Origin: a virus
DNA length: 62,329 nucleotides
IMG/VR virus record: IMGVR_UViG_3300035670_000210
Span: 1-62,329 of that record
Direction: 5' to 3' (one strand)
A program made the translations under genes and the position numbers. The notes beneath the pieces were generated by a model that saw only the letters and a list, made by a program, of their open reading frames with translations, did not search any database and was not told the DNA's origin. Positions 3,987-41,564 of this stretch are shown here, piece after piece (position 1 is the stretch's first letter; every line of letters begins with the position of its first letter).

Positions 3987-3997
3987 GGAGAAAGATA

Positions 3998-4294: not shown

Positions 4295-4295
4295 C

Positions 4296-5513
4296 ATGCT
4301 TATGATGGGTAACCTCACACCGGAGCAGCGGGTGCAGAAGGCCGTGATCGACATCATGGCTAACCCCAAATACGTGGCACTTGCAGGTGTGCTGATGATC
4401 GGGTCACGCCGTGTCGAGCCTGACAGTAGCAAGTGTCCGACCGCCTACACTAACGGGCGTGACGAGGTGTATGGCGCGGACTTCATCGCCGACCTCAACG
4501 ACAGGCAGCTGCGGTTCCTTGTGCTGCATGAGGTGTATCACAAGCTGTATCGCCACCTCACCACGTGGAAACACCTCTACGACCAGAACGCACAGCTGGC
4601 CAACATGGCGTGTGACTTCGTCATCAACTGCAAACTGATGGACGACAACCTCGACCTGTTTGCCACCATGGACGGCAAGCTGAAGATGGGCTGCTTCGAT
4701 GCCAAGTATCGTGGCTGGGACAGTGCACAGGTGTTCAACGACCTGAAGAAACAAGCACAACAAAACCCGCAGGGTAACGGCTCAGGACAAGGTGGCCAAG
4801 GTGGCCAAGGCTTCGACGAGCATGGCTGGGACGATGCCGACGACATGACCGCCGAGGAGAAACGCGATCTGGCGCGGGAGATCGACGAGGCCGTGCGTCA
4901 GGGTGCACTGGCTGCAGGTAAGCTGGGCAACGGCATGAGCCGTGACATGGTCGAGCTGCTTCAGCCACAAGTGGACTGGCGTGAGGTGCTGCGTGACTTC
5001 GTGCAAACAACTTGTCAGGGCAACGACTACTCGACGTGGCGACGGCCCAACCGTCGTTACATCGGCGCGGGTGTCTACATGCCGAGCGGGATCAGTGAAC
5101 AGATCGGCGAGATCGTGGTTGCCATCGACACATCAGGCTCCATCGGTGCGCGCGAACTGGGTGTGTTCCTCGCCGAAATCAAATCGGTGGCGGACACCGT
5201 GCACCCCGAGGCCATACGCATCCTGTACTGGGACACGTCAGTGCGTGGCGACGAGCGGTATGAGGGGGCCGAGGTGGACAACATCGTGCAGTCTACCAAG
5301 CCCAAGGGTGGTGGCGGCACCGACGTGCGCTGTGTGCCCGACTACATCGCAGACAAGCAGATCAAGGCACAGTGCGTGATCGTGCTGACCGACGGCTATC
5401 TGTTCGGTGGCTGGGGTCAGTGGCACCACCCCGTGCTGTGGTGTGTGTTGGACAACGAGCGGGCCAGCCCTGACGTGGGCAAGACCGTGCACGTCAAATC
5501 AAGGGGCATGTGA
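4296..5513 (+). CDS. Metallopeptidase-like plus VWA-like domain protein
   Basis: 405 residues. N-terminal HEVYH (78-82) is a zinc-metallopeptidase HExxH motif; a Gly/Gln linker (158-172) leads to a VWA-like domain with MIDAS residues DTSGS (278-282), G-T-D (341-343) and LTDG (364-367). This fits the DUF2201 type (putative metallopeptidase with VWA). Such proteins pair with MoxR ATPases as at 2889. It starts two bases after the previous stop; the two further Met codons within four residues leave the exact start open. Whether the peptidase is active cannot be told. Confidence 0.85.
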   Translation: MLMMGNLTPEQRVQKAVIDIMANPKYVALAGVLMIGSRRVEPDSSKCPTAYTNGRDEVYGADFIADLNDRQLRFLVLHEVYHKLYRHLTTWKHLYDQNAQLANMACDFVINCKLMDDNLDLFATMDGKLKMGCFDAKYRGWDSAQVFNDLKKQAQQNPQGNGSGQGGQGGQGFDEHGWDDADDMTAEEKRDLAREIDEAVRQGALAAGKLGNGMSRDMVELLQPQVDWREVLRDFVQTTCQGNDYSTWRRPNRRYIGAGVYMPSGISEQIGEIVVAIDTSGSIGARELGVFLAEIKSVADTVHPEAIRILYWDTSVRGDERYEGAEVDNIVQSTKPKGGGGTDVRCVPDYIADKQIKAQCVIVLTDGYLFGGWGQWHHPVLWCVLDNERASPDVGKTVHVKSRGM

Positions 5514-22216: not shown

Positions 22217-22307
22217 TACAGTGCGCGCACTCATGGGAATACCGAAGGGTTTTTCATGTTCTCCTCCCTGTTACTATACCCCGCCTCACGGCGGGGTTTT
22301 TTCTTAG
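22179..22307 (+). CDS. Possible short ORF over the terminator
   Basis: 42 residues (MDDLGYASGVHYDTVRALMG...), overlapping the previous gene, with AGAGG adjacent to the ATG. The first half reads like a HTH-sized peptide (G-V-H-Y-D-T-V-R-A-L-M-G-I-P-K-G), while the second half is the translated terminator. Translation of the first half is plausible but the ORF could be chance. It contains a perfect 12-bp palindrome AGTGCGCGCACT (22220-22231). Confidence 0.3.
   Translation: MDDLGYASGVHYDTVRALMGIPKGFSCSPPCYYTPPHGGVFS
22279..22302 (+). terminator. Strong terminator at convergence point
   Basis: CCCCGCC - TCAC - GGCGGGG followed by six T on the + strand: a classical intrinsic terminator for the rightward unit. 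On the opposite strand the stem is followed only by TATAGT, so it may stop leftward transcription less well; the leftward unit ends at 22304, right beside it. Confidence 0.85.
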
Positions 22308-25300
22308 TCGAACAGTTGGAAGCCTTGGTTCCATTCCTCGCGGCTCTCCCTTTGCGCGCGCTCCATGTTCGGGCTGATAGTGATGCCGTTGTACATGCTC
22401 CGTGTGGTTTCCAAGTGCTGCCGCATCGAGCGACGGAGGGAATCGGCGTCGATACGGGCCGTGGGGTGCCGCTTATTGAACTCCCGAATACGCTCCAGCA
22501 TGCTACGCCGCTCGTCGCTGTCCCCCATACGAGTAGCCACGTAATAACGACGTAGCAGGTTAGTGCGTGTGGTGTTTACCGCGCGGTCGACGTTCTTAGT
22601 CTGCTGATTCATCTCTTGGGTGCGGGTGTATTCTGCAGGTGCAAAGCCGACAAACTTTGCGGCCAGCTGTCCAAAGGACAGGTCGTCCATGATTGGGTCA
22701 CCGCGCCGAGTGACAATACCATCGTCGTTCGGGAACCGGAACGCAGCCTGATAGGCGTTGCGAACACCAGCAGGCAGCATAGCTTCTACACCACGTTCAA
22801 CTTCACCGTTCATTATATCTTTGAATCCGCGATTGTAGGAGGAGATAACACTCCATGCCGGACCGCCCAGATAGTGAAACACGTCCTCCTCAAGCGACGC
22901 ATCGTGGTTGAAGCGGTTGGCTTGGAAGATGAGCCCCGACAAGCCGATACGGCTGGACATGTCCACCCCGAGCAGTGCAGTGAGTGGGCCCTTGTAGAAA
23001 CCCTCACCGATCGCCTTGCGTACAACGGTTTCGACGTCGTCCTCTTCGTCATCGAAGAAGAAAAAGTCGATCAGCTGCATAAGCTCCCGTGCCAGCGGCA
23101 TACCAACAACACCCGCCAGCACAAACGACGTACCCATGACTCCAGCAAACTGCCGCATAGCTTCGTTGCGGGCAACTTTATCTCCAGCGTGGTGTGCATC
23201 CAGTGCGTCACGTATGGTTTTGAACATGGAGTAGTACATCTGGATGCCATAGGTCTTATACATGAGCGCCACGCGCCCAATACCCTGTTGGCTAAACCGC
23301 GGGGCGGTCTCCAGCACCGAGCCACCGTTGGTCATCTGCGTGTTGTAGAGCGCGCGTTCGGCAGCTTTTGTCCGCATTTCTGCAGCGGACAAGGTAGGCT
23401 CATCCTTCTTGAGGCGTGCAAGCTCAAGCTGGTACGCCGAGATAGCTGTGACTTGCCGGTTAAAGACTTCGACGTTGTGGAACATGAACGCCGATGCCGC
23501 CGACACGGTATCAATTACACCGCGCTCACGCCCAGAGCTGTCAATGCCGAGATTGTCGGCGAACAGGGAGCGGTTCAGCTGCCCGCGTGCGGCCATCATC
23601 TCCACAAGTGGTTTGAGTTCCTCAAGCTGTGCCCGCAACTCGGGCTCAAGGTCCAAGTCCTTCCGCAGCACGTAGTCACCATTGCCGTCCAGCTCGAAGT
23701 AGTTATCGACGCTAGGCATTGCGCGGACCTTGATGTTCCGTTCGTCGCCATAGGGTGCAACCATGTCACTCTTGCGATTAAACCCACTGCTGGTGACCAG
23801 CTTGGAGGCGTTCATAATTGCACGCCCAGTAGCACCGTAGCCATGACGTCCGGCAAACATGGGGTATACAAACATGGGCAGCTGGGACAGGTTGACCAGC
23901 GCCGAGGATACGTTGAAGCCGATGGTGAAGACGAACGCCGCACGGTTGGCGTTCTGTGCGAGGGAGTCGCCCGGTGGATTACGTGCAAAGTCTGCCCGGG
24001 CTTCAAGCTCGTCGAGGATATACTTGTTCTCCTCCGTCAACCGAGGCCGATTGTCTTCAGCAATTTTATCCTGCAGATCACGCAGCTTCGCGCTGTACCG
24101 CAGCCGCTCCACCTGCCGACCAAGATCGAACGCCTTGGTCTTAAGCGCGAAGATTGCATCTTCTTGGTAACCCGCCGTGCCCTTGCGCCGTTGCAGTGAC
24201 TTGGCAAACGACGTCTCTGGTAGGGCCTCCACGAACAGGCGCATGATCTCAGCCTGCACATTGTCGGGCACCTTGTTAGCCCGCAAGACTTGAAGGGTCT
24301 GACCTACGAACGAGCTTGGCGGCGCTTTGGAATAGTTGGCGTTGTTGACGTTGACGAACTTTTCGAGGTTCTTGACCGTCTTGTCCGCTTTGAGGTCGTC
24401 CATTGCACGGTCGCGTTCGGCCATGGTCTCAAAGGCTTCGACGGTGAACTCTCCGTTGGCAACATACGACACCCAATAATTGCCAGAACGTGTTAGTGGG
24501 AAGTACGGCTCGATTGTACCAGTCGAAAACAGGCGCGCGTATACTTCGTTCTTCAGTTTTTTACGTGCCGCTTCGTCAGTAATTGTCTCGTCAATCTTGC
24601 CGTAGATGACATCCCGCATGCGCTCGTACTGCTTTTTGTACGTGTCGCGCATCTGCGTGTAGACCTTATCTCCACCAGTAGCGGACAGAGCCCGCCAGTC
24701 AGCGCGCATGGCCTTCCACGCCTTAACTTTTTCAGGATCACTTGCGTAGGCCGACACGGGTTTGGTTGGGTCGACCTGTTCAACGGTGCTCTTATAGACC
24801 ACACGGTTCAGTGCGTCGATCTGGTCTTGGTGGGCGCGTACCCAATTAGACACCGACTTTAGAACACCCTCAACTTCTTGGTCTGATTTGTTGATGGCAC
24901 CGCGCTGCTCTTCCATGAGCTTGTGCAGGTCCATTGCACCTGTGATTCCGTTGCGTTGCGCCACGTCAGCGACGGCCTGCGAGGGATAAAACCCAAGTAG
25001 AGCCCGCTTAGCCGCGTCAGGGGCAGTGCCTTTCAGGAACTCACGGGTTTGATCCGCGAAGCGCTGCGCAAACTTCTCAGTAATCGGTTTAGACTGTTTC
25101 TGCACATTGCTGAACGCTTTTGCGACCCGTTTACCTGCGGCGCGAGGTGACAGCATGAAGATTTCACCTGTACCGATGTTTCTCGGCGCGGGTGCAAGAA
25201 TATTGTCGATGATGCTGCTGGTCTCCTCCAACGCCGACTCGATCGGCTTAACGGGTTTGCCAATCAAGGTACGTAGGAAGTTTGACACCGCGGCTTTGAT

Positions 25301-28300
25301 CTTAGCGAACGGCGTGAGGGGCTCACCGTTGACCCGCAGCCCAGACAGCATACGCTGGAACTTGGGGTTGGAGAAGGATTCAGCCACAAACTCCGCAAGA
25401 CTCTCGTAGCCATACGCAGTCGGCATGTGCTCGCGAGTTTCGTCAAAGATTTTCTGCAGCTTACGGGTCAGCGGATGGCCCTTGTTGGCGAGCGTCGCAA
25501 CAGTCGCTGCGTGGGTCATCTCGTGCAGGAGCACGTGGGTATTGAGGCCCGCACCATCCAGAATCTGGATTGTGTTAGTTCCCGAGTCAAACCTGCCGAA
25601 GGCACCGCGATCTAGGGACTTAACAACTTCAACCTTGGTATCACCGACGACCCTAGCCAGCTTCTCTGCAACAGCCACAACTTCAGGGTCGTTGCTCGTC
25701 GCTGCCAGCACACGGAGCGCTGCACCGAGGTCACCATTACGCAGGAGACCAGACACCACGCTAGACAGCGGTAGGCGCGACGGGGGCACCGACAGGTTAA
25801 ACAAGCTGCCACTGGCCATGAGGCCACGCACCATCGGATCAGACTCGTCAATGCCGAGTTTCTCCAGCACATCCGCGAGGCGTTTATTGTCGGCATCGCT
25901 CGTCGGGTCAAACCCACCCTCAAACGCTTTTTCAAGCTCACGACGCTTAGCTACAAGGTCGGTGGACTCGAAGGCTTCGACCGCCTGCATGGCGTTCTTC
26001 GATTCAACAGTTTTGCCTGCAATCCACCGCTTAGTGGCTTCAGACATGTTTTTGCTCGCCCAGTCGAGGACGACCTGCGCTGCGTTCTTACCACGTGCAG
26101 GGATTTTACCGTCCTTGGTCGCACCAAAGAACTCGGATTCCCCGTCAGTCATGTCCTCTGTACGCCGGAAGTTCGGAGTCTGCGCGACTACGTCGTCGAT
26201 GGCGTCCTGCAACCCGAGCGCCGGATCAGGGTATGCACCGAGGTACTTCTTGAGCGCACCGACCGAGGCTTTGTTTTCCTTGGTCGATTTCTTGTTAAGT
26301 TCTTGCAGGATGGATGTCTTGTCGCCAACCGTCAGCGGGCTCGTGATCGACAGTCCGAGCTCTTTGACAAACCGCTTAGCCGGTGCAGAGACGTTAGCCT
26401 CGTACCAATCAGCCAACTGCTTGGTGACTTGGTCGCCGCTGACCTTGGGGGCAGACGTCGCCGAAATCTTTTCACGGGGGGCAAGCGCACGAGACGTCGG
26501 GCCCACACGCTCTTCGCGTATCGGCTGTAGGGTCTGGCGATCAATGACCGGGCGCTGTCCAAGAGTCGGCATTACTGCGCGGCGCGTGACGCCTTCTTCG
26601 CCTTCTTCTAGTGCTGGACGCTGTGTTCCTGTTGACTCTTCAGCACGAATAGCGCGCGCGACACGTTCTCCCAGTCCTCTGGGCTTAGGTGTTGCAGGTG
26701 CTCCGGCACCGCCACCTCTACCTCTGCCCCCTGCGCCGACCTCCACGCCGCGTCCACCACCACGAACGCTTGCTCCAGCTCCTTGCTGGTCAGGTGCTGC
26801 AGTGCCATCTGTAACCCCCCGTGTGGTCTCTGAGAAAAGCTCAAGTTGTTGAGGTGTGCCCTGCTGCGTAGCAAGTGCTGGCTGAGATGTGGAGCGTGCA
26901 GGTGCTTGTTGCGAAGCTGGCTGTGCAACTGCTCGGCGCGCTCCACGAGGTGCAAAGAGGTCAGGTTGTTCTTCGGGAACCCCCTCAAGGCGGCGGCTGA
27001 TGCCCAGCTCTGCAGTTTGAGAAGTGCGTGGCTGATTTGCAAAAGAAGTAAGGATTTCACGCGTTGTGGGGTCATTCAGGTCCTTCCCGCGGAGGCGGTT
27101 CCGAATACCGGACTTAGGCGGAATACCCATCTCGTCGAGCATCTCATCGGTAACAACTTCCGGTGCCGCAGTGGGTTCGGCTTCCTGTGTAGGGGCCTGC
27201 TGAACTCTACGACGTACTCCGGGCAAACCAAGCTGCTCAGGCTCACGCGGGGCCCGCTCCGGAATACGCGACTCCATCTCTTGCAGTTGTGTAGCTTCCG
27301 GCGGCAACTCAATCGGCTCCGCCACAGTGGACACTGCATCGGGACGCTCCGCGCGCTGCACGTTTACTGCACGTTGGATGGTCTGAAGTTCGGCTTCCGT
27401 GGCCTTAGCTTTATCGTTCTTATACCCTGCACGTGCCAGTGCATCCTCGTACAAACGAGACACGCGGTTGTAGTTACGGCTGGGGGTCTTCTCGATAACG
27501 TCTTGCAGGATACGACGCCGACCCTGTTCGGTGGCTTGCTGACGCTGCGTTTCCTGCTGCCCGGCGATAGTTTCAAGGTCGGACTCGGCACGCAGTGCCG
27601 CCCGCTGCCCCTGCTGCGCACCTTCTGCGGCTTCAATAGCGGCGAGCTGGTCGACGATGTCGGCGTCTTCTTGTGCAGCCCGCTGGCGCTGGTCAGCCAT
27701 CTCGACGAGATCACCCATAGCAGCGGGCTGCTCGGGGGTGACGGTCTCCGCGGCTTCCTCGACGTCCATAAACTGATCGGGCCGACGCAGTTCCTCGGGT
27801 CCCAGCCGACGGCGCTCTTGTTCTTGCTGAAGCGCAAACAAGTCGGGCTGTTCAAACGCAGCTACGTCGCCACGCTCTGCGGCCCGCAGGCCCTCACGCT
27901 CACGGGCTGCTGCCTGCGCTTCCTGCTCGTTACGGGCGATATCTGCACTGACAGCGCTCTGCCCTGCACGGGCTGCCTGCACTGCTGAGGCGAGACGTGC
28001 CGGAGTCTCTATTTGAAGGGGCGCAGCCGCCTCTTCTTCCATCTCGCCGCGTGCGCGTTCAGCCAAGGCTGAACCACGCCGACCCATCTCCTCAGCGACT
28101 ACACTCTCAAGCTCAGGCAGCGGGACTTGCGTTTGGTCAACAAGCCGCTGCATCTCCTCAAGAGATACGCCGCCTCGCTCGTCGATAGCTTGTCCGATCG
28201 CTGCACGTGCCTGCCCTGCACGCTGGTCAGTAATAAGCCCCGCGATACCCTCCGGTGCGGGCAGTGCAAGCGGTTCTGGTTCCGCTTCGGGTGCCGGGGC

Positions 28301-29218
28301 ACCGGCGCTCGGTGCCCTACGACCTGCAAACAAGTCAACGAGCACCTGAATAGTGGCACCGGCTCCGCCTCCGAAGGCAGCTGCTTCACCTGCACCTTCG
28401 AGGATGGCTTGGTCGACGTTGTAACCACGCTCGATAAGGTTCTGTGCGATACCTGCGGCGGCTTCCTGTGCAGCTTCTTCACCGCCAGTGCGTAGCGCAC
28501 TGACAATGCGTTGCCGGAACCCCTGCACAACTTCTTCGCCGAGATCGCCCGTTAGCTTACCCAAAACACGCCGAAGTGGCAGTGCTTCTGTTGCACCTAC
28601 GGCGGCACCGAAACGCGTAGCACGATTACGCTCTTCTTGCGTAGCCCCGGCTGCACGGGCACGTTCACTTGCTTCGCCAGCACCAGCACCGACACCGAGC
28701 GTGCCTGCAGTGAGGAGCCCCGCGATACCAGCACCTGCAGCGCCAATCCCCGCAGCGCCAGCACCATAAGCAGCCGCAGCACCAGCACCGATGAACCCTG
28801 CAATAGAGCCGAAAGTAGAGCCAATTTTGTAGGTAAGGTCTTCTTCATCCCCGAAGCTGGGGCGTAACGCGCTAGCCGCACCTTGGATGCGCTGACGCGC
28901 AGCGAGTTCTTCCTCCTCGTCGAGCAGTGTAGCTGCACCGAGAGCGGCGGTTTCGCCGATACCGACAACACCAGACGCAAAGCCCCCCGTCAGATCGCCG
29001 AAGAACCCCGTTTCTTCTTCTGGCGGTGGGGGCCGCTGCGCTTCCAATTCGGTGAGCCGCGCCTGACGCTCCTCGGTGCGCGCGGCACGGCGCTCACGCA
29101 TCCCCTGCACGGCCATCTGTTGATTGGCGCGCTGTACAATTTCTGCCTGTGACGCGTTTTCAGGAGCTTCTACTTGGATCGTCGAGCCATCCCGAAGCGT
29201 GAGATTATACCGCGCCAT
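22304..29218 (-). CDS. Giant internal virion/polyvalent protein with metallopeptidase motif
   Basis: 2,304 residues. The first 55 residues are a small phage N-terminal domain (short beta, then Q/R-rich helix), then Gly/Ala-rich helices (95-300) and a long Glu/Gln/Arg/Pro-rich segment. H-E-M-T-H at 1232-1236 is an HExxH zinc metallopeptidase motif. A hydrophobic stretch near 1755-1785 (F-V-F-T-I-G-F-N-V-S-S-A-L-V-N-L) and the following part look like the large-polyvalent-protein domain LPD38. Such proteins are packed in the podovirus head or tail and injected with DNA; cell-envelope or periplasmic action is inferred. Confidence 0.8.
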   Translation of the reverse strand: MARYNLTLRDGSTIQVEAPENASQAEIVQRANQQMAVQGMRERRAARTEERQARLTELEAQRPPPPEEETGFFGDLTGGFASGVVGIGETAALGAATLLDEEEELAARQRIQGAASALRPSFGDEEDLTYKIGSTFGSIAGFIGAGAAAAYGAGAAGIGAAGAGIAGLLTAGTLGVGAGAGEASERARAAGATQEERNRATRFGAAVGATEALPLRRVLGKLTGDLGEEVVQGFRQRIVSALRTGGEEAAQEAAAGIAQNLIERGYNVDQAILEGAGEAAAFGGGAGATIQVLVDLFAGRRAPSAGAPAPEAEPEPLALPAPEGIAGLITDQRAGQARAAIGQAIDERGGVSLEEMQRLVDQTQVPLPELESVVAEEMGRRGSALAERARGEMEEEAAAPLQIETPARLASAVQAARAGQSAVSADIARNEQEAQAAAREREGLRAAERGDVAAFEQPDLFALQQEQERRRLGPEELRRPDQFMDVEEAAETVTPEQPAAMGDLVEMADQRQRAAQEDADIVDQLAAIEAAEGAQQGQRAALRAESDLETIAGQQETQRQQATEQGRRRILQDVIEKTPSRNYNRVSRLYEDALARAGYKNDKAKATEAELQTIQRAVNVQRAERPDAVSTVAEPIELPPEATQLQEMESRIPERAPREPEQLGLPGVRRRVQQAPTQEAEPTAAPEVVTDEMLDEMGIPPKSGIRNRLRGKDLNDPTTREILTSFANQPRTSQTAELGISRRLEGVPEEQPDLFAPRGARRAVAQPASQQAPARSTSQPALATQQGTPQQLELFSETTRGVTDGTAAPDQQGAGASVRGGGRGVEVGAGGRGRGGGAGAPATPKPRGLGERVARAIRAEESTGTQRPALEEGEEGVTRRAVMPTLGQRPVIDRQTLQPIREERVGPTSRALAPREKISATSAPKVSGDQVTKQLADWYEANVSAPAKRFVKELGLSITSPLTVGDKTSILQELNKKSTKENKASVGALKKYLGAYPDPALGLQDAIDDVVAQTPNFRRTEDMTDGESEFFGATKDGKIPARGKNAAQVVLDWASKNMSEATKRWIAGKTVESKNAMQAVEAFESTDLVAKRRELEKAFEGGFDPTSDADNKRLADVLEKLGIDESDPMVRGLMASGSLFNLSVPPSRLPLSSVVSGLLRNGDLGAALRVLAATSNDPEVVAVAEKLARVVGDTKVEVVKSLDRGAFGRFDSGTNTIQILDGAGLNTHVLLHEMTHAATVATLANKGHPLTRKLQKIFDETREHMPTAYGYESLAEFVAESFSNPKFQRMLSGLRVNGEPLTPFAKIKAAVSNFLRTLIGKPVKPIESALEETSSIIDNILAPAPRNIGTGEIFMLSPRAAGKRVAKAFSNVQKQSKPITEKFAQRFADQTREFLKGTAPDAAKRALLGFYPSQAVADVAQRNGITGAMDLHKLMEEQRGAINKSDQEVEGVLKSVSNWVRAHQDQIDALNRVVYKSTVEQVDPTKPVSAYASDPEKVKAWKAMRADWRALSATGGDKVYTQMRDTYKKQYERMRDVIYGKIDETITDEAARKKLKNEVYARLFSTGTIEPYFPLTRSGNYWVSYVANGEFTVEAFETMAERDRAMDDLKADKTVKNLEKFVNVNNANYSKAPPSSFVGQTLQVLRANKVPDNVQAEIMRLFVEALPETSFAKSLQRRKGTAGYQEDAIFALKTKAFDLGRQVERLRYSAKLRDLQDKIAEDNRPRLTEENKYILDELEARADFARNPPGDSLAQNANRAAFVFTIGFNVSSALVNLSQLPMFVYPMFAGRHGYGATGRAIMNASKLVTSSGFNRKSDMVAPYGDERNIKVRAMPSVDNYFELDGNGDYVLRKDLDLEPELRAQLEELKPLVEMMAARGQLNRSLFADNLGIDSSGRERGVIDTVSAASAFMFHNVEVFNRQVTAISAYQLELARLKKDEPTLSAAEMRTKAAERALYNTQMTNGGSVLETAPRFSQQGIGRVALMYKTYGIQMYYSMFKTIRDALDAHHAGDKVARNEAMRQFAGVMGTSFVLAGVVGMPLARELMQLIDFFFFDDEEDDVETVVRKAIGEGFYKGPLTALLGVDMSSRIGLSGLIFQANRFNHDASLEEDVFHYLGGPAWSVISSYNRGFKDIMNGEVERGVEAMLPAGVRNAYQAAFRFPNDDGIVTRRGDPIMDDLSFGQLAAKFVGFAPAEYTRTQEMNQQTKNVDRAVNTTRTNLLRRYYVATRMGDSDERRSMLERIREFNKRHPTARIDADSLRRSMRQHLETTRSMYNGITISPNMERAQRESREEWNQGFQLFD

Positions 29219-31841: not shown

Positions 31842-32612
31842 TCACGTCGGCATGAAGGTGGCAGGGTTGATCTGCTTACCTTGTTTCGTTGTACCCGTGC
31901 GTTCCTGCCGCACCCGATCCATCATTCCGTATAGCTGTTTTGCACCGGCGTCAGAATTGCCGTTGCCAAGGTGGCTAACAACATCTGCCGGAATAACAAA
32001 CTCACCATCACTTAAGGCCGCGGGCTGCCGTCCGTCGATTTGCGCAGGGACTTGGTCAGCCATACCATCAGTCGGACCTCCGAGATAGTACCCTTTACCG
32101 GGCAGCGAAGCGAGCCCGCCAGCAGCGTAGCGCGGAGTGAACCCCGCTAGTCCCTCTAGAGACTCCATAACTGGGCGGTCCTCAATAACCCGTGCAGGTG
32201 CACGGGGGGCGGTTGCGGTGCGATCACGACTTAGTTGCGTCGGAGGCGGCGGTGCTGGGCGAGATTGCCGCAATGGATTGGCCACATTAAGCGCCGCGAG
32301 ACCTTGAGCCTGCTCTCGCAGGGCAGGCATGGCGCTTTCAGCTTCTTTAGTAGTAAACGCAGTGTCGGAGAAATACCTCTGGCCACCACTCCCGGGACGC
32401 CGGTCAGCGTCAACGGCTCCCGGCACCTCAGCACGTTCGAACGTGTAGCTTGGTATCTTACCTTGATAGCCCGTGGGCGGAGCCGAGCCACCAAAGAACC
32501 CGGAGTCGGATTTGTTGAGTGCATAGCTGGCACCAAGGGAAAGAAGCGCGCCGAAATCGACGTTGCTGGCTATGTTGGTAAGTGCGTCTACCGTATCCCC
32601 AAAAAAGCTCAT
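31842..32612 (-). CDS. Virion structural protein with 'LSDGEFVIPADVV' motif
   Basis: 256 residues. A hydrophobic helix at the front, a Pro/Arg/Ser linker, then a Gly-rich C-terminal region with L-S-D-G-E-F-V-I-P-A-D-V-V and a basic end. This S-D-G-E-F-V-(I/V) motif is widely seen in internal or tail proteins of uncultured phages, often as a domain at the end of a larger protein. Here it stands alone, overlapping the 1,910-residue protein by ATGA. Probable virion component. Confidence 0.65.
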   Translation of the reverse strand: MSFFGDTVDALTNIASNVDFGALLSLGASYALNKSDSGFFGGSAPPTGYQGKIPSYTFERAEVPGAVDADRRPGSGGQRYFSDTAFTTKEAESAMPALREQAQGLAALNVANPLRQSRPAPPPPTQLSRDRTATAPRAPARVIEDRPVMESLEGLAGFTPRYAAGGLASLPGKGYYLGGPTDGMADQVPAQIDGRQPAALSDGEFVIPADVVSHLGNGNSDAGAKQLYGMMDRVRQERTGTTKQGKQINPATFMPT

Positions 32613-35600
32613 TTTAGCTCTCCGATTATGCGTAACAACTTATCAGTTGTACCCTCTACTTGTCCACCCTTAGCGTAGGGACTGGGGAATAGCGAAGACT
32701 GCTGCGGCGTAGCGAAGATACTCTGGAAGTCGTAGAGATAGTTAATCCGCATGGGGTCGGGCGTGCGCACGTCTACACGCTGTCCGGCAACGTCTTGTTG
32801 TTGCCGTACAAAGTCCCCAAAGGCCCTACGACGCGCTGCCTCGTCTTGAGCGGACATCTGTGTCTGCAGCTGGGTAGCGAGCTCAGTTTGGTTCTGAATC
32901 TGCGCTTCAATCTGCTTCTGTGTCTCCGCTTCGGCAGCGAGTTGTGCGGCGAGATTCTGCTCCTGCTGTGCGTAAATCCCCGTAGCAGGTCCAAAGATGG
33001 ACCCCGGTGCGAACGTAACGTCGGTACCTGCAAGAGCTTGCTCAAGCAGGGCAAAGTCGTCCTGAGTAATTTGGCCGTCACCCGTCACGTCGTATTGACG
33101 CTGACTCATGGATAGGTCGGTGATGACTTCTTGCTGTGCGATAAGATCGGCGACAAAATCGACATCCACCTGCGTGACGTCCCGTGCGGGCTTGCCGACT
33201 AGGTCTGCAACAAACTGCAGGTCACCGGTGAACTGCGTACCGAGGCGCTCTTCTGCTGCACCTATTTCTGTTAGCAGTTCTTCTTCGGTCAGCCCGATCT
33301 GCTCTAGCAGGCTTTCTTCTGTGAGGCCAAGCTCCGTAGCCAGATCACCAATAGCAGTGGAAAGCGCCTCGTCGCGCTTAATGCCTGCGGTTTCTAGTTC
33401 GTCTACGCGATCAAGAATCGACGCTTCTACGTCAGTAAGTGTCTCCTTAACACCCGCGACGTCTTCTTTGACATCCGCGACGTCTTCTTTAACGTCTGAG
33501 AGATCGGACGCAACGTTGTCAATTTCTTCTAGCAGGCGCGTTTCAGTTAGACCGAGTTCTTCTAAGAGGGCTTCTTTGGTTGTGTTTAGGTTACCTGCGA
33601 CCTTCTCGATCGCGGCTTTAAGTGCTTCATCCCTAGTCGCACCGGCTTCTAGCTCCGCATATATCCCCGTTGCAGGCTTAGACTCGTCCGCCTCTGTATT
33701 GGGGTCGTCCTCAACTCCGGGAGACCCGAGTATTTGTTTAATTACGTTGAACGTAGCCGTTGGCAGATAATCCCGGACTTCCCCAAGGCGTTTTTCTTCA
33801 TCGAACTGCCCGACAAACCTATCAACGTCCTCCTGCGACACGTCTACAAGTCCCAGCGCTTCATAAGCTGCGCGGATTTCCCCAGCGTCCACGTAGCGGG
33901 GGTCTACGTAGGCATCAATTTCAGCCCGCTGTGTAACTTGGAAGTTTGCGTCGTTTGCCTGCCCTACAAACCGTTTGATTTCTTCTTTTGTAGGGTTGTA
34001 GCCTATGGCGCTAAGAAACTCTTTTGCCTCTGCTTCTGTAACCTGCCGAGGATTCACATACGCGCCGATAGCGCTTGTCTGTGCTTCTTCGGTTTTGGAC
34101 GCCACAAACTGTGCGATTTCTTTGGTGGTTGCCGCATACCCCGTATTAGCAAAGAACTGTGTGGCCTCCGCCAGTGTGGTGGCGAGCGGATCATACTCTG
34201 CACGAGCTGTGGTAAGCGTTTTGCGCTCAAACGTATCGGACGCACTTTGACCGATGTAAGTCTGTGCAAGTGCCTCAGTTAGCGTCAAACCTTCTTCGGC
34301 TGCGATAGCCTGCAGTTCGTCGCGCGTTACCTGCCGGGGGTCGACATACTTAGAGATCACTTCCTTCTGGGTGGTCTCTTTAACTTGCGCAACAAATGCC
34401 GTAACTTGCGCATCTGTGGGGGTATACCCTAGCTCTTCGAAGAACTTACGCGCCTCTTCTTTGGTAACCTGCCGCGGATTAACGTAGGTTTCTACACGGG
34501 TAGGTGCGGTACCCTCAAATTTTTCATCGCCCTGACCAACAAAATCTTTGATCTCTTGGGCAGTCGGTTTGTAGCCGAGGTTTGCGAAAAACTGCGTGGC
34601 TTCAGCAGTTGTAACTTGCCGGGGGTCTACGTACGCTTCTAGCTCTTTAAGGACGTCGGCCTCTTTACCCTCGCGCACGAACTGCGCGATTTGCGCGTCC
34701 GATGGTTTGAATCCCTGCGCAGTAAACGCGGCAGTCGCTTCTTGTTTGGTAACCGCCTGCGGGTCATACTTTTGCTGGATTGAATACAGCGCGGCTTGCG
34801 TGGCATTGGGGTTGTCGGTCTGCGTGACCATATCCTGCGCTTGTGCATCGGTGAGCTTTACACCCTCCGCAGCGGCGGCGGCCTTCACTTCTTCGATATC
34901 GACGTAGCGCTGGTCCACGTAGGTATTAATGTACGTCGTAACATTTTGTCCTGTGGCGTTCAGCACCCCGTTCAGGATATCGGCGTTAGTAACCCGAAAG
35001 TCTGGGTGCGCCGAGAACGCACGGGAGACGTCTCCGTTACTGTGGTATTTAGTGTTTACGGTGCTGAGCAGGTTATTCTGTGCCACCTTGTCAGTCAGAC
35101 CCAGATTTGTCAGCGCGGTTATTGCGGCCTGTGGGTTAGACCCGCCTCTTGCGATCGCGTTACGCACCGCGGCGTTTGTGCGGATAAGTGCGTCTGCGGT
35201 AGCGTATCCGGTGTATATACCGCCCGCCGTACCGGACCCAGCGACAGCGCCGAGAGTGGCTGCTTGCAATACCGATCCAAGAACGTCGCGGTCTGGGTCA
35301 ATCTGTGCCAGCACCGTCTCGGTAAACAGCGTCGGAAGTCCCTCTTCGATAGACTCCTGCACGCCTTCTTTCCAAGTCACACTGGCCCCCTCGGTCACAC
35401 GCCGAGTCAGTAGGTCAAAGGCTTTTGCGGTATCCCCGGAGTCAGTACGCGCTAGGATAGATTTTTCAAACGCGTTACCGTCCATGACTCCCATGCTAAT
35501 AAGCGTTGTCGTAACACCAACCATACCCGCAGAGATGGCCACATCCCGCGCGTAAGCCTCGGCCTCGGCCTCGGACATGCCAGACTGTCTTGCAGTCGTA

Positions 35601-38341
35601 AACGCAGAGTCATACGCAGAGCCTGCCGCACCCCCAAAAGATTCGGCTAGGTCTAGCGTAGCCGCAGTGCCGAGTGTCGCCCGCCGGGATAGGTCTTTTG
35701 CGACTTGTTCACCAGCAGTGCTGAGCAGGCGTTTGGTCACATTCCCGGTGCCACCACTGACCAGAAGAACCGGAATCTCTTGCAGGATTTCTTTACCGAT
35801 AATCTCGGCGAGAAACTGTACAGGAGCTTCTTGGAAGCCTCCCCACACAGATGCCACTTTTTCCCAGCCTTCACCCTCCGCCATACGCGTGTTCATACGC
35901 GTAACGGCGGCTTTCCACTCGGGGGTTTTCATGTCGCCGCCGAGAGCTAGCATGTCCCGGGCAAACGCACCTAGTGGGGTGCTGGCAGGGTTAATGTTAG
36001 CCAGCAAGACCATGTTATTGAACGTGTCGAGTAGTTCCCCACCCGCCTCTAGCGCAATGCCCGCAGTGTTCATAATACCGGGAGACGTTTTAGCGTACTC
36101 TACTACGTTCCGCGCGAACTCGGATACCGCCTGCCCAACCTGCGTGTCAATAATAGCCCCAGCAGCTTTGCTTAGGCCCCCAACCGCTTGGATAAACAGC
36201 GATGGGTCAGTTTCCTGCAAGTCGGTCAGATTCTGAGCCTTGGTGATATCTAGCTGAAGGCCCCCAACACGGGTCCCAGTTACGGCATCTACAAGCACGT
36301 AGGACCCATCAAGCTGAGTACCTTGCTCTACGTAGACTCTCTTTACCAGACGGTTAGATTCTGCGTCCCAGTATGGAGTATTTAGTTCTAAGCGACCCCA
36401 TTCAAGAAGCCCCTCGTTGTTAACAGTCAGACGAGCAGCGCCGGTAGCGATGTCTTGGTCCGTGATGCCAGTTTGACGACCAATAGTTTCTGCGGTCTGG
36501 ACGCGAGGCTTAGTCAATCCGGTGATGTCGTCTTGGGTTAGGTACTCCCCAACCATACCCGGCTTAAGTCCGGCTCGTTTTAGCGCGTCGTTGATCGCAG
36601 GTGTGATGGTCGTTACGCCAGCTACGTAATCCTGTGCGGCAACCCGGTCTGCGAGCGCCTTATTAGTGAGCAAATTATTTGCAAGCGTCTGTGTTGGAGC
36701 ATCGCGAAGTGCTTGAAGCGTGGGGTATTGTTTGTCGATGTTGGCCAAGAACGCTGCGCGCTCACCTTTAGTCATGTCGGCGAGTGACAAACCCGCACGC
36801 TCAAGTACAGAGTTGACGACCCTTTGCCGATACGCACCATATTCTTCGTTGTATGCGGCAAGATTGGTAGGTAGCCCCTGCTCCTTACCAGTGCTCAGCC
36901 AGTGTAGGTACGCATCTTCGTCTTTACCTAGTCCGGCAATTTTCCGATACTCTGCCTCGTTAAAGTTAGGGTCCATGAACTTAACGAACGTGCGGTCAAG
37001 TTCGTTGTACACAGGCTTCAGGTCTTCTGCGATGCGGTCCGAAGCGACCGAAAGATCGTCGACCAAATCATCGTACGTCTTTGACTCTTTTTCAAACTGC
37101 GCCTCAAAGTTGGCGACCTGTTGTTCGTAGAGGTCTAGGTTCGGCTTAAGTGTTTTCTCGTACTCTTTGTTAAACGCCGTGACATGCGTGTTAAAGGCTT
37201 TCACCGCAGCATCGAGCTTTTCAGCGTTTGCTTGGCTCTCGTTTGCTTGAAAGTTCTTGAGCGCACGTTCATAGTCCGTACGTAGAGCTTCTTGCTTTGT
37301 TACCCCGTCGTTAATCTTCTTTACAGTGGCGTTGTACTTATCAACTGCGCCCGAGTGCGACTTCACAACTCCGTCCATCTTCTCAGCTTGAGCTTGGGCG
37401 CGCTGGTAATCCCCGGTAATCTTGTCGATCGAGTTGTTGACCGCATCACCAAATTTGCTGTTATCGAGCCACTTAACGAACTCTTTTTCACCGTACTGGC
37501 TGAGCTGACTCAAAATAACGTCTGGTACGTTACCTCCGCTAAAAGCGGTTGCCGCGGTGCGCTGAATGCCAAGCGTGAGCGCGCTGAGCTGGTTGTCAGT
37601 AAGCTTCTGTGCGAGTCCGAGATTCTCTCCGAGGAAGGTATTTACGGTTTTCGTCACGCCCTCACTGGTAAGCAGCGCGTTCCAGATCAAGTCGGGTGTA
37701 AGCTCTTGACCCGTAAGCGCCGCGGATAGCCCAGAAGTAATCACGTTGCGTGCCACCGGCGGCAATTTTGAGAACGCACCTTCTGTATTAGTCTCCAACC
37801 AGCCAGCCGCCGCGCTAATGCCGCCAGATATGCCCCCTTGAATAAACGCTTTTACTGGGTCCTGCCCCATAACAAGTGCGACCGTCGCGCGACCTGCACC
37901 GGAACCTGCCGCCGAACTAACAAGCTGCGTAGCAAACGCGGACGCTCCCGCATTTACCATCGTTTGAGAGGCTAGTTCACCAGCAAGGTTTCCGACCTTA
38001 CCGCCGACGTAGGAGATAGCTGCTGACTTTAAGGCGTCACCAAACGAACCACCGTTTGCAAGCGTTGTAGCGCCGTCAATGAGCGGAATTGCCCACGCGT
38101 TACCCGTAAGTAGCGCCGCGGCTTTCGTTACAAACTGGCCAATGTCCGATGTAAGGACGCGTTTTACCGCCTTACCAACTGGCTTCACAATGTTATCGTA
38201 CACCCAGTCAGCTGCACCCGTCTTGTGCGATACAATAGCAGCCCCCACGCCCACCAGCGCTGCGGTGGCGATACTTGCACCGGCGGTTACGGCGACTGCA
38301 GCACCAGCTGCACCAAAGAAGATCGGGACAAGAACCGCCAT
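32609..38341 (-). CDS. Giant repeat-containing internal virion protein
   Basis: 1,910 residues. N-terminal Ala/Gly-rich hydrophobic segment (1-38), charged helices (300-450), a middle domain region, then eight repeats of about 45-55 residues (roughly 1137-1525) keyed by Y-(V)-D/N-P-R-Q-V-T and F-F-x-x-L-G-Y-x-P-T. A coiled-coil stretch follows (D-V-K-E-D-V-A), then a Ca-type loop D-V-T-G-D-G-Q-I-T-Q-D-D (about 1760-1771), like EF-hand/dockerin. Probably an internal or DNA-ejection protein; tape-measure-like length in a short-tailed phage is notable. Confidence 0.75.
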   Translation of the reverse strand: MAVLVPIFFGAAGAAVAVTAGASIATAALVGVGAAIVSHKTGAADWVYDNIVKPVGKAVKRVLTSDIGQFVTKAAALLTGNAWAIPLIDGATTLANGGSFGDALKSAAISYVGGKVGNLAGELASQTMVNAGASAFATQLVSSAAGSGAGRATVALVMGQDPVKAFIQGGISGGISAAAGWLETNTEGAFSKLPPVARNVITSGLSAALTGQELTPDLIWNALLTSEGVTKTVNTFLGENLGLAQKLTDNQLSALTLGIQRTAATAFSGGNVPDVILSQLSQYGEKEFVKWLDNSKFGDAVNNSIDKITGDYQRAQAQAEKMDGVVKSHSGAVDKYNATVKKINDGVTKQEALRTDYERALKNFQANESQANAEKLDAAVKAFNTHVTAFNKEYEKTLKPNLDLYEQQVANFEAQFEKESKTYDDLVDDLSVASDRIAEDLKPVYNELDRTFVKFMDPNFNEAEYRKIAGLGKDEDAYLHWLSTGKEQGLPTNLAAYNEEYGAYRQRVVNSVLERAGLSLADMTKGERAAFLANIDKQYPTLQALRDAPTQTLANNLLTNKALADRVAAQDYVAGVTTITPAINDALKRAGLKPGMVGEYLTQDDITGLTKPRVQTAETIGRQTGITDQDIATGAARLTVNNEGLLEWGRLELNTPYWDAESNRLVKRVYVEQGTQLDGSYVLVDAVTGTRVGGLQLDITKAQNLTDLQETDPSLFIQAVGGLSKAAGAIIDTQVGQAVSEFARNVVEYAKTSPGIMNTAGIALEAGGELLDTFNNMVLLANINPASTPLGAFARDMLALGGDMKTPEWKAAVTRMNTRMAEGEGWEKVASVWGGFQEAPVQFLAEIIGKEILQEIPVLLVSGGTGNVTKRLLSTAGEQVAKDLSRRATLGTAATLDLAESFGGAAGSAYDSAFTTARQSGMSEAEAEAYARDVAISAGMVGVTTTLISMGVMDGNAFEKSILARTDSGDTAKAFDLLTRRVTEGASVTWKEGVQESIEEGLPTLFTETVLAQIDPDRDVLGSVLQAATLGAVAGSGTAGGIYTGYATADALIRTNAAVRNAIARGGSNPQAAITALTNLGLTDKVAQNNLLSTVNTKYHSNGDVSRAFSAHPDFRVTNADILNGVLNATGQNVTTYINTYVDQRYVDIEEVKAAAAAEGVKLTDAQAQDMVTQTDNPNATQAALYSIQQKYDPQAVTKQEATAAFTAQGFKPSDAQIAQFVREGKEADVLKELEAYVDPRQVTTAEATQFFANLGYKPTAQEIKDFVGQGDEKFEGTAPTRVETYVNPRQVTKEEARKFFEELGYTPTDAQVTAFVAQVKETTQKEVISKYVDPRQVTRDELQAIAAEEGLTLTEALAQTYIGQSASDTFERKTLTTARAEYDPLATTLAEATQFFANTGYAATTKEIAQFVASKTEEAQTSAIGAYVNPRQVTEAEAKEFLSAIGYNPTKEEIKRFVGQANDANFQVTQRAEIDAYVDPRYVDAGEIRAAYEALGLVDVSQEDVDRFVGQFDEEKRLGEVRDYLPTATFNVIKQILGSPGVEDDPNTEADESKPATGIYAELEAGATRDEALKAAIEKVAGNLNTTKEALLEELGLTETRLLEEIDNVASDLSDVKEDVADVKEDVAGVKETLTDVEASILDRVDELETAGIKRDEALSTAIGDLATELGLTEESLLEQIGLTEEELLTEIGAAEERLGTQFTGDLQFVADLVGKPARDVTQVDVDFVADLIAQQEVITDLSMSQRQYDVTGDGQITQDDFALLEQALAGTDVTFAPGSIFGPATGIYAQQEQNLAAQLAAEAETQKQIEAQIQNQTELATQLQTQMSAQDEAARRRAFGDFVRQQQDVAGQRVDVRTPDPMRINYLYDFQSIFATPQQSSLFPSPYAKGGQVEGTTDKLLRIIGELK

Positions 38342-38814
38342 TAAACCCTCCAGAACTCTTTTAGGGAGTCATCCCCGATGTAGATGTACGCGCGGTATCC
38401 GCCGTTATCGAGCTGAACAACGTCGACTTCGGTGTCAGTGTCCTTTGTTTTATTATACCAAAACTGGAACGCAGACAAATACTCCTGCGCGTTGAAGTCT
38501 GTACGGTAGTAACGAATACCCTTGTTTTGTAGGTACGCCAGATATTTGAGTCCGCTGCGGACAAAATTCTGAGCGGTGTCGATGTTGAGGGCCCGACCCT
38601 CCATCACGTTCTCGTGCTCACCTTCGCCAATGTGCCCGATAAACACAGTATTCCCGATCTGTACCTGATCGGTGCTTGGCATAGCGAGTTCTTCAGCGAC
38701 AGCCGCAAGTACGTTCTGCAGCGGATATCCGGTATCGTTGAGGTCTTGGGCAAACCGCATGATTACTTCGGGCGCAGAAAGAAACTGCTTTTTGCTGTCC
38801 ACTACAGTTGCCAT
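38341..38814 (-). CDS. Unknown protein partnered with acyl carrier protein
   Basis: 157 residues from ATG 38814, which overlaps the ACP stop as TGATG. Helical N-terminus (1-45), alpha/beta C-terminus with G-I-R-Y-Y-R-T-D-F-N and L-D-N-G-G-Y-R-A-Y-I-Y-I-G-D-D. The strand/helix order could fit an acyltransferase- or thioesterase-like fold, but no catalytic motif is convincing. Position straight after ACP suggests a partner using or presenting the acyl chain; this is inference. Confidence 0.55.
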   Translation of the reverse strand: MATVVDSKKQFLSAPEVIMRFAQDLNDTGYPLQNVLAAVAEELAMPSTDQVQIGNTVFIGHIGEGEHENVMEGRALNIDTAQNFVRSGLKYLAYLQNKGIRYYRTDFNAQEYLSAFQFWYNKTKDTDTEVDVVQLDNGGYRAYIYIGDDSLKEFWRV

Positions 38815-39095
38815 CAAACAAACTCCAACAGGTTTTCCACGGACTCAGGTTCTTGTGTTTTGTGTTTGTCCACGTAGTCACGCAGGTCTGCGATTGTAAA
38901 TTTACCCGAGTTGTCGAACTGCGCGTTACGAGGTATACCGTACGCATCGGTCAAAACCGCTACGACCATTACCATATCTAAGCTGTCAATTCCGAGCTCA
39001 TCTGGAGAGTCAGCATAGTCTTTAGCATCTGCACCGCTTACCTTGCGAGATGCGGTGGCTCCGACTACGGCGTTAAAGGCGACTAGGAAGTCCAT
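38814..39095 (-). CDS. Acyl carrier protein-like
   Basis: 93 residues from the ATG at 39095; longer in-frame readings overlap the fibre gene. The phosphopantetheine attachment motif G-I-D-S38-L-D-M is perfect, with D-E-L in front and a following helix (V-M-V-V-A-V-L-T-D-A-Y-G-I) as in AcpP. The C-terminal F-T-I-A-D-L-R-D-Y-V is also ACP-like. It would be modified by the host pantetheinyl transferase and carry acyl groups. ACPs are unusual in phages and the gene stands in the tail module. Confidence 0.8.
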   Translation of the reverse strand: MDFLVAFNAVVGATASRKVSGADAKDYADSPDELGIDSLDMVMVVAVLTDAYGIPRNAQFDNSGKFTIADLRDYVDKHKTQEPESVENLLEFV

Positions 39096-39102
39096 AAATT
39101 CC

Positions 39103-39720
39103 CTACAAGTTGCTGGAGAAGCTGACAGCGACAACAGCCGCTGGGATACCCGGATGCGGTGCAGTGGCTGCGGTGGACTGGAGCGATAGTGCTGTACTGC
39201 TAGTTGCCCAATACATTTCGATGTACTGCCCAGCGGTAAGATCAATCGAGAAGTTCCAGTGGGTTGTTTGAGCCCCACTACCTTTGATAGACGTAGCTTG
39301 CCCACCATACGGCACGTCAGCACCGTTTTTGTTGATCCATGTCCACAACGTCACTGTGGACGCGTCGGAGTGCTCCGTCTGCAGAGTAACCTGAAAGCTA
39401 TATATCCCGGCGGCGGTGACAGTGATACGGGTATCGCTTACAACACTTACTCCACTGCCGAGGTATGTGATTTCAAACTCGACGGGATACCCCGTGTTTG
39501 CTACGGCAGCTGTCTGGTCTGTGGTGCTGTAAAACAGCCCTTGCGGCATGTAGAGAAATCTACCGCCGTTATTGACACTAAGTAACGTGTTTAACAGGCT
39601 GGTAATCCGGGTGAAAAACAGACGCAGCACGTTGCTGTTCTGGTCCATAAAAGGCCGATCGTACTGTTCCGGTGCGAGCGGTAGGGCGGGGGGCTCGGCT
39701 TTTTGAATTTCGTTCGCCAC
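39103..39720 (-). CDS. C1q/TNF-like tail fibre or appendage protein
   Basis: 205 residues from GTG 39720, which overlaps the previous stop (TAGTG); an in-frame ATG further upstream (39771) would overlap that gene by 52 bases. An N-terminal helix (L-R-L-F-F-T-R-I-T-S-L-L-N-T-L) probably drives trimerisation; the C-terminal ~130 residues are beta-sandwich-like with V-T-A-A-G-I-Y-S-F-Q-V, as in C1q-like heads of trimeric fibres. Likely a receptor-binding or capsid/tail appendage. Confidence 0.65.
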   Translation of the reverse strand: MANEIQKAEPPALPLAPEQYDRPFMDQNSNVLRLFFTRITSLLNTLLSVNNGGRFLYMPQGLFYSTTDQTAAVANTGYPVEFEITYLGSGVSVVSDTRITVTAAGIYSFQVTLQTEHSDASTVTLWTWINKNGADVPYGGQATSIKGSGAQTTHWNFSIDLTAGQYIEMYWATSSTALSLQSTAATAPHPGIPAAVVAVSFSSNL

Positions 39721-41564
39721 TACCGCCTCCCATCCGGGCGGATATCGATGCGTGGTGTGCCAAGCTGCCACTGCACCCCCACCGCGGTCGACTCGATCTT
39801 AATAGCCAACTGCCGTCCGCGCACACGTGTATATACCTGACCTGTATACTGTTCGATGGGTACTACGGAAGTCCGCGTGACCGTAGCAACGTTTGTCCCA
39901 CCCTCAGACGCCGGGGTGTTATACCCCGAACCGGAGTTTGCCAGCGGCAGCAGTGTCATTGTCACGCTAGGGTTATTAGCAGTGGACCCGTCGAAGCGAA
40001 GATCAGGCAGCATGCGCCATATGAATGAGAAGCGGTCCCCTTCCCCCAAAGCAAACTGCGTTGACGCGATGTACGCGTGAATCGGGAGCGTGGTGTCGCC
40101 TTCGTTGTTGTCGAGGCCATCTTCATGATCGACAAGGTTGTTAGAATACGTGGCCGCAAGCGGGTGATCCCGCAGGCCCGAATCCAACCATGCCGAACGC
40201 CCGAGTTCACCGTAGTACCAGACATCTTCTAAGTAGTTATAGACTACATAGCGATCGTTCTGCGTGGCACTGGATGAACAATAGAACCACCAAATCTCAT
40301 GGAAGGCTTCATTGGTTCCAGAGCACACCTGCTCATACTGCTGGTGGTTGAAGTCGTCGAAGATAAACTTGCGGAGGTCACAGCGCAAAGGTTGCGTGCG
40401 CCCGTCATATTTGTAGAACTTATCGTTACCCATCCAATAAGCTACGCCGTTGGCGTATGCCACTGCGTTCTGAGATGCGATGGAGATGTTCTCCCCCACG
40501 AGCTGCGCGCCCCAAACAACCGGAGCACCCTGATATTGCAGGGAGTAGAGGGCAGCGTCTGTCCACACCAAGATTTCTTGGCGCGACTGGGCCGCGGTAA
40601 TGATTTCACTGCCCCGAGATAGCCGCAGGCTACCCGCTTGGTTTGTCGCAGCGGGGGTCCAAAGCGTAGCGTTTTCTTGGTCGGACCAGCGGATCAGCAT
40701 CGGGTCCTGTGTCGCGCTACCAATCTCGTTACAACCCATACAGAAGACGAACCTACTTACGTCGGATATTGTAATAAAGTTTTGTACCGTGGGGACGTTA
40801 GACGCTCCGCCGAGCGAGGACAGCAATACGCCGCGCGTAGCTAGGCCACTGGTCGCATCCCAGTAATAGACCGCACCGCCGCGCGGGCCGAATACTAGGT
40901 CCTCACCAAAGTTGTTTTGGCTCCACAAGCGCAGCGAGTCTGTAGAGGATGCACCAATACCCCAAGTGCCGGAACTCCACGTAGATGCACCCCAGCCGGT
41001 CAACGGCACGGTAAAAGCCGGTCCAGTATTGATCTGATAGGCTGCAGTGACAGACCCACCGCCGGTGGTGCTCGATGACGCCGGTGTGCCAACGTCGATG
41101 GTGTAAGTTGCGGCACCGATAAGCGTGAGTTGATATTCCCCACTGGGTGTGACGCCCCCAACGGCAGTAGCACCACTAAACGTGACGAAGTCTCCATCAA
41201 GATAGCCGCCAGCTGCATCGGTAACTTCTACGATCGACGAGCCCGCGGTGGTCTCAAACGGGTTGGTAAGGCTTACTGTCGCGCGAAGTGGGGTGATATC
41301 GCTATATGATCCGCCTTGCTCGATATAGAACTTCAGATTGGTGCCTACACCAATCAAGTTCTGGCTACCCAGCGTGATCCAGTTCCATAAAGAGCGGCAC
41401 ACCCCAAGGTAGGTGGTCCCAGAAATACGCTGCCAACCGCCGATCTTCTCTGGCAGGCCTTGGCGGAACCGCACATTGTCGCCCTCGTACCAACGGCCCT
41501 CGTTGGTATAGCTGGTGTTTTCGCGGTTAATTCCCGGTTGGAAGCGTATGTTCTGTAGCGGCAT
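39720..41564 (-). CDS. P22 gp10-like tail hub (packaged DNA stabilisation protein)
   Basis: 614 residues, beta-rich. The opening M-P-L-Q-N-I-R-F-Q-P-G-I-N and repeated W-D/A-containing blades (W-N-W-I-T, W-S-D-Q-E-N-A-T-L-W, W-Y-Y-G-E-L-G-R-S-A-W-L) are typical of P22 gp10-like propeller hubs. Such proteins close the portal/adaptor tunnel and attach tailspikes. Located between lysis genes and internal proteins. Length agrees with gp10 (about 470) plus insertions. Confidence 0.75.
   Translation of the reverse strand: MPLQNIRFQPGINRENTSYTNEGRWYEGDNVRFRQGLPEKIGGWQRISGTTYLGVCRSLWNWITLGSQNLIGVGTNLKFYIEQGGSYSDITPLRATVSLTNPFETTAGSSIVEVTDAAGGYLDGDFVTFSGATAVGGVTPSGEYQLTLIGAATYTIDVGTPASSSTTGGGSVTAAYQINTGPAFTVPLTGWGASTWSSGTWGIGASSTDSLRLWSQNNFGEDLVFGPRGGAVYYWDATSGLATRGVLLSSLGGASNVPTVQNFITISDVSRFVFCMGCNEIGSATQDPMLIRWSDQENATLWTPAATNQAGSLRLSRGSEIITAAQSRQEILVWTDAALYSLQYQGAPVVWGAQLVGENISIASQNAVAYANGVAYWMGNDKFYKYDGRTQPLRCDLRKFIFDDFNHQQYEQVCSGTNEAFHEIWWFYCSSSATQNDRYVVYNYLEDVWYYGELGRSAWLDSGLRDHPLAATYSNNLVDHEDGLDNNEGDTTLPIHAYIASTQFALGEGDRFSFIWRMLPDLRFDGSTANNPSVTMTLLPLANSGSGYNTPASEGGTNVATVTRTSVVPIEQYTGQVYTRVRGRQLAIKIESTAVGVQWQLGTPRIDIRPDGRR

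Follow-up and report, generated by a model that had tools for sequence, protein, structure and literature searches.

The window analyzed here, the complete stretch of 62,329 nt of the IMG/VR virus record IMGVR_UViG_3300035670_000210, contains among its structural genes a gene for an acyl carrier protein (ACP) that is directly followed by a gene for a protein with a predicted GNAT fold, referred to below as the partner. These two genes are a version, lacking the ketosynthase (KAS), of a phage cassette that consists of an ACP, a FabF-type KAS and the GNAT-fold protein. At the level of sequence, the case comprises the identity of the ACP, the catalytic residues of the KAS, a fixed gene order, translational coupling and purifying selection. 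The conservation of the ACP and the partner is not due to chance. The parts of the cassette are known; their combination and their setting are new. The two genes of the window are the following:

38814..39095, minus strand: ACP, 93 aa, with a predicted phosphopantetheine site at Ser38 in GIDSLDMVM
38341..38814, minus strand: partner with a predicted GNAT (acyltransferase) fold, 157 aa plus stop, the start of which overlaps the stop of the ACP gene

An earlier note on this DNA had located both genes correctly (39095-38814 and 38814-38341, both on the minus strand). It had also rightly described the phosphopantetheine motif and the TGATG overlap of the stop codon TGA of the ACP gene with the ATG of the partner gene (junction sequence ...GTTTGATGGCA...), that is, translational coupling within a structural module. 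Its interpretation is borne out in part; it had missed that in most relatives a KAS gene lies between the two genes, and that the cassette is located at a tail/ejection junction next to a gp10-like protein.

The acyl carrier protein and its GNAT-fold partner

As a single sequence, the window ACP is only weakly recognized, with 17.4 bits (E=0.0052) for Pfam PP-binding, which is below the cut-off of 20.8 bits, and E=0.005 for the PHROG family 'acyl carrier protein'. However, a profile built from 46 phage ACP relatives matches about 90 ACP sequences in the PDB (best E 3e-7), including ACP subunits of respiratory complex I. The predicted model (pLDDT 88.7) has helices at residues 3-14, 38-51 and 68-78, with Ser38 as the first residue of helix II, and a Foldseek search of the PDB with this model retrieved almost exclusively ACPs (top probability 1.00, with E-values of only about 0.1). 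The motif DS[L/M]D is kept in 126 of 126 distinct relatives, so that the phosphopantetheine serine is invariant, as it is across the 29 ACP loci that lack a KAS. In the KAS-less lineages, the ratios of nonsynonymous to synonymous substitution rates (dN/dS) of ACP pairs are mostly 0.06-0.31, with one divergent pair at 0.53. Because of this family-level evidence, namely the profile, the predicted fold and the invariant DSxD, the identity of the protein as a genuine ACP is considered settled at the sequence level, in spite of the weak single-sequence scores.

One feature sets the phage ACPs apart from AcpP of E. coli. Helix II, through which AcpP is usually recognized, is poor in acidic residues, with a mean of 1.2 after the DSLD motif versus 5 in E. 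coli AcpP, which fits an ACP that serves a private partner. A phosphopantetheinyl transferase (PF01648) was not found in any of the 14 phage genomes searched, and therefore phosphopantetheinylation of the ACP would need a host enzyme.

For the partner, no family was recognized by sequence in PHROG or Pfam (no Pfam match at E<=1), nor was there a sequence match in the PDB. The structure predicted by AlphaFold2 from 60 sequences (window and IMG/VR) has a pLDDT of 95.5 and the order of elements a1-a2-b2-b3-b4-a3-b5-a4-b6-b7. Nearly all of its Foldseek matches in the PDB are GNATs (probability about 1.0, best E 6e-5), and its close structural matches are uncharacterized phage proteins (TM 0.83). 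With high confidence, the partner is thus predicted to have a GNAT acyltransferase fold. The conserved residues are S7, E42, G54, N55, T56, N77, D79 and N83, and S7, G54, N55 and D79 are invariant among the relatives; dN/dS is 0.03-0.10 in the KAS-less lineages. The glycine-rich Q/RxxGxG/A loop that binds the pyrophosphate of coenzyme A (CoA) is absent and is replaced by a conserved RAxNxDTxxN after strand 4; therefore, we classify the partner as a GNAT-fold protein and not as an acyl-CoA-dependent GNAT enzyme. The absence of this loop is to be expected if the partner uses ACP instead of CoA, given that ApxIC, a GNAT that uses acyl-ACP, likewise lacks CoA-binding elements (PMC8339906).

The ketosynthase and the order of the cassette

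MW202545 (Manatee Spring virome) encodes relatives of both the ACP and the partner, with a gene annotated as 3-oxoacyl-ACP synthase located between them. The product of this gene, of about 370 aa, matches PF00109/PF02801 and, by profile, FabF in the PDB (E to 5e-28). Its Cys-His-Lys-His pattern is that of FabF (KAS II), and this catalytic set is invariant, with Cys129 present in 118 of 118 sequences and His266, Lys294 and His299 in 115 of 115; dN/dS is about 0.03. Unlike FabF, the phage KAS has a shorter N-terminus, carries GMGN in place of the C-terminal GFGG-type motif and was found only in viral contigs and one contig of a metagenome-assembled genome (MAG). Its best scores, 111-119 bits, are below the cut-off of 493.75 bits for the FabF equivalog TIGR03150; judged by its sequence, the enzyme is FabF-like but is not a FabF equivalog. 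The family corresponds to PHROG 35856, which is listed as 'unknown function', so that the KAS annotation is useful by itself. In one locus (L069:548-1648), the KAS reading frame is in two pieces, which reflects either a frameshift or a sequencing error. No KAS was found elsewhere in the window genome or in the tested relatives that lack it. Other KAS matches in INPHARED, besides MW202545, were discarded, as they have 24-30% identity and stem mostly from unannotated records resembling host DNA.

Relatives in IMG/VR were collected with the KAS of MW202545 as bait, which yielded 66 contigs, and by profile scans, which yielded 48 ACP loci and 166 partner loci; of the latter, the best 80 (nearest the window) were kept. 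The scan with the ACP profile was productive, whereas the ACP as a single-sequence query found no relative in IMG/VR. A tblastn search of INPHARED with the window ACP and two relatives found MW202545 only, a plasmid search at E<=1e-25 gave no match, and a PADLOC search found nothing. Among genomes of GTDB, the KAS was present on a single MAG contig (JAGYJQ010000016.1, Balneolaceae; L189), which carries the complete cassette together with phage-like genes. Because the cassette is of the same type as in the phages, this contig is probably a virus that was binned with the MAG.

Of 188 loci, 129 have the order ACP-KAS-partner, and one more has it with a split KAS; further loci have ACP-partner (25, plus a duplicate of the window locus), ACP-KAS (17, mostly at contig ends) or the partner alone (12). 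These numbers are not population frequencies, because there is some redundancy among the contigs and the partner loci are the 80 nearest the window. Since loci found with the KAS are KAS-positive by construction, counts separated by seed are fairer. The 80 partner-seeded loci contain ACP and KAS in 54 cases, ACP only in 14 and neither in 12. Among 34 informative ACP-seeded loci, 22 have KAS and partner, 10 have the partner only, and 2 have the KAS without an adjacent partner, and in the informative KAS-seeded loci the ACP is located upstream in 65 of 65. Wherever the contig reaches far enough, the KAS was never seen without the ACP, and the ACP never without the KAS or the partner, which places the ACP at the center of the cassette. 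Overlaps of stop and start codons are usual within the cassette, and in 105 loci the ACP gene overlaps the KAS gene by 4 bases.

Genomic setting

The cassette is present in two phage groups that are divergent in the tree. In both, it is preceded by a gp10-like protein and by a small ORF or a tail protein of about 207 aa, and it is followed by genes for very large proteins that are presumed to act in ejection. A transglycosylase SLT protein, which resembles internal virion proteins, is encoded downstream of the cassette in MW202545 and L140. Neither FabG nor other genes of fatty acid pathways were found among the neighbors that were read. In the window, the structural half contains terminase, capsid, tail fiber and endolysin genes, and the other half encodes DNA polymerase A, an SNF2 helicase and a PD-(D/E)XK nuclease. 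The genes that flank the cassette are:

39720..41564, minus strand: gp10-like virion structural protein (phrog_3287), which in both phage groups is conserved ahead of the cassette
39103..39747, minus strand: upstream tail protein, about 207 aa, which weakly matches BclA_C (C1q/TNF-like) and takes the place of P22 gp26; window-type relatives also have it ahead of the cassette
32609..38341, minus strand: giant protein of 1910 aa directly downstream of the partner, by its position a presumed ejection/internal virion protein

The 1910-aa protein contains repeated units resembling YVDPRQVTxxEAxxFFxxLGYxPT, and its length varies strongly between relatives. Farther away in the window, a protein of 2304 aa with the 'large polyvalent protein' domain LPD39 is encoded at 22304-29218 (minus strand), and the early module contains a pair of the MoxR-VWA type at 2889-5513 (plus strand), an AAA_5 (MoxR/CobS-like) ATPase followed by a DUF2201 metallopeptidase/VWA protein.

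Candidate functions of the cassette

Among the functions proposed in the earlier note, acylation of a virion protein fits best with the predicted GNAT fold of the partner. We tentatively favor, at a level of confidence below even, that the phage ACP provides a private acyl-ACP for the partner, which would act as an acyltransferase on a tail or ejection protein, by analogy with the RTX toxin and CdiC systems but outside of that family. In such a pathway, a host phosphopantetheinyl transferase would convert the ACP to its holo form, and host enzymes, together with the phage KAS where it is present, would load the ACP and elongate the acyl chain. The partner would then use acyl-ACP as its direct donor and acylate an amine of a neighboring virion protein, most likely, by analogy with CdiC, a tail or ejection protein, and the acylated protein might insert into the host envelope during DNA delivery. 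In the window phage, which has no KAS, the chain would come from the host pool of acyl-ACP, and in relatives that have lost the ACP as well, host AcpP would take its place. The more specific proposal that the cassette both builds the fatty acyl group and attaches it to a DNA ejection protein, so that the virion is lipidated, appears unlikely on present evidence.

The closest analogs are the toxin-activating lysyl acyltransferases (TAATs; HlyC, ApxIC and CdiC, the RtxC family), which, like the partner, have a GNAT-like fold but no loop for the CoA pyrophosphate. They use acyl-ACP as donor, and their genes adjoin that of a large protein delivered to another cell (PMC8339906, PMC8510554). CdiC lipidates a delivered toxin in the region that binds the receptor, which aids recognition of the target cell (PMC8510554). 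However, TAATs use the ACP of the host and have no private ACP or KAS, and in the partner, which has no Pfam match, the TAAT dyad was not recognized.

Several observations weigh against acylation by the cassette. The structural matches of the partner in the PDB reach TM values of 0.5-0.6 only, the canonical catalytic pattern of GNATs is not fully conserved, and neither is the His/Asp dyad of the TAATs: of the two residues that might correspond to it, His61 is present in 103 of 123 sequences (84%) and Asp79 in 122 of 122 (100%). The acyl target is putative, and no candidate is singled out among the tail and ejection proteins. Nearly all of these phages may carry the partner, which would make co-occurrence weak proof of a joint function. 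In phage P22, the corresponding slot is filled by gp14, in a module without ACP or KAS. Finally, the cassette genes also occur apart from each other. In 12 of the 80 partner loci nearest the window, neither ACP nor KAS is found beside the partner, and the gene immediately upstream of it is another structural gene. A partner conserved without the ACP, which the earlier note had named as an outcome that would refute its reading, is thus observed in part. No ACP was found elsewhere in the ACP-less contigs (including one of 60.7 kb), which implies that the partner can work without an ACP of its own, perhaps with that of the host. Conversely, in six contigs (L142, L146, L147, L050, L054 and L152) the ACP-KAS pair is located among replication genes, next to a helicase, and thus can function independently of the structural module; in L054, the partner is nevertheless kept in its usual tail-ejection slot.

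The pair in these six contigs lies between the helicase and a small protein that, by eye, possibly contains a helix-turn-helix. Inspection of L142 and L054 revealed a ribonucleotide-reductase-like sequence farther downstream of the pair.

On the tree of partners, which covers the window's side only, the presence of ACP plus KAS requires six changes, all six of them forced by well-supported branches, with gains and losses indistinguishable because the root is unknown. The partners of L061, which lacks the ACP, and L016, which has it, are near-identical, indicating that the presence of the ACP can change quickly.

The occurrence of the ACP-KAS pair and of the partner apart from each other, as well as the P22 arrangement, is in line with the main rival explanation, which we consider somewhat unlikely. 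It holds that ACP and KAS form a metabolic unit of their own, which intervenes in host fatty acid synthesis or produces a special fatty acid, for membrane remodeling or a takeover of acyl flux, whereas the partner is an independent morphogenesis factor of the gp14 type that became a neighbor only because the pair was at some point inserted just upstream of it. Phage ACPs have usually been interpreted in this way: the single ACPs of the marine phages R22Y and vB_EliS-R6L were read as auxiliary metabolic genes (PMC11705849, PMC5463345). The ACP of vB_EliS-R6L has 93 aa, like that of the window, but for neither phage was a KAS or a GNAT-fold neighbor described. The gene order of the cassette also differs from fabG-acpP-fabF in a Rhodobacteraceae prophage, which keeps the bacterial operon order (PMC8224337). 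A metabolic pair does not explain why an ACP without KAS remains directly beside the partner in 25 loci, with most ACP pairs there under purifying selection. Moreover, FabG and other pathway genes are missing among the neighbors that were read, a late structural setting is odd for a bulk change of lipids, and helix II lacks the acidic residues usually recognized by host enzymes.

The comparison with P22 also bears on an explanation that we regard as distinctly improbable, namely that both proteins serve in assembly without catalyzing a reaction, the ACP by assisting the folding of other proteins or by acting as a scaffold, the partner as a degenerate structural protein or chaperone of the ejection module. 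Mitochondrial ACP has such a role for LYR proteins, and the match of the ACP profile to complex I subunits is in line with it, as is the non-canonical GNAT motif of the partner. Gene 14 of P22, located between gene 26 and gene 7, encodes a DUF2824 (PF11039) protein of 151 aa, a 'virion stability factor', and hence resembles the partner in length (about 150 aa) and in its slot between tail genes of the gp10/gp26 type and ejection genes. The structural matches of the partner include, among the weaker ones, a phage protein of the DUF2824 family (rank 45). Homology of the partner with gp14 was nevertheless rejected, as there is no sequence-profile similarity to PF11039 (hhalign probability 0.1%). 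Assembly subunits would leave unexplained that the catalytic residues of the KAS are all invariant over more than 110 sequences. The invariant serine in the 29 KAS-less ACP loci also speaks for a functional carrier, although a structural ACP could need an acyl-pantetheine arm as well.

Two further alternatives have less in their favor. That the cassette makes a diffusible signal or inhibitor, with KAS and ACP building a 3-oxoacyl chain that the partner joins to a small amine in the manner of an acyl-homoserine lactone (AHL) synthase, is very improbable. LuxI-type enzymes do use acyl-ACP or acyl-CoA as donor, and the AHL synthases BjaI, MesI and TofI are among the PDB structural matches of the partner, but they match no better than other GNATs, the Pfam search covered the autoinducer synthase family without a match, and the cassette is located among virion genes. 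A decoy for ACP-dependent host regulators such as SpoT or MukB, also raised by the earlier note, has nothing specific in its favor beyond the presence of an ACP and can hardly be credited in view of the acid-poor helix II, the late structural placement and the pairing with a GNAT-fold protein and with a KAS that, judged by its complete catalytic set, is apparently active and for which a decoy would have no need.

No description of an ACP-KAS-GNAT cassette was found in the open-access literature, which leaves out most subscription papers. Phage ACPs have so far been filed as loose metabolic genes; here, gene order links the ACP with a ketosynthase whose catalytic set is complete and with a GNAT-fold protein, and the cassette occurs in two divergent groups of uncultured phages exactly at the genes of the ejection machinery. 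Fatty acylation of phage injection proteins is thus a testable idea, which bears on how the ejection proteins of podoviruses meet host membranes. The results suggest that phages may attach, or even build, fatty acyl groups while assembling the machinery for DNA injection.

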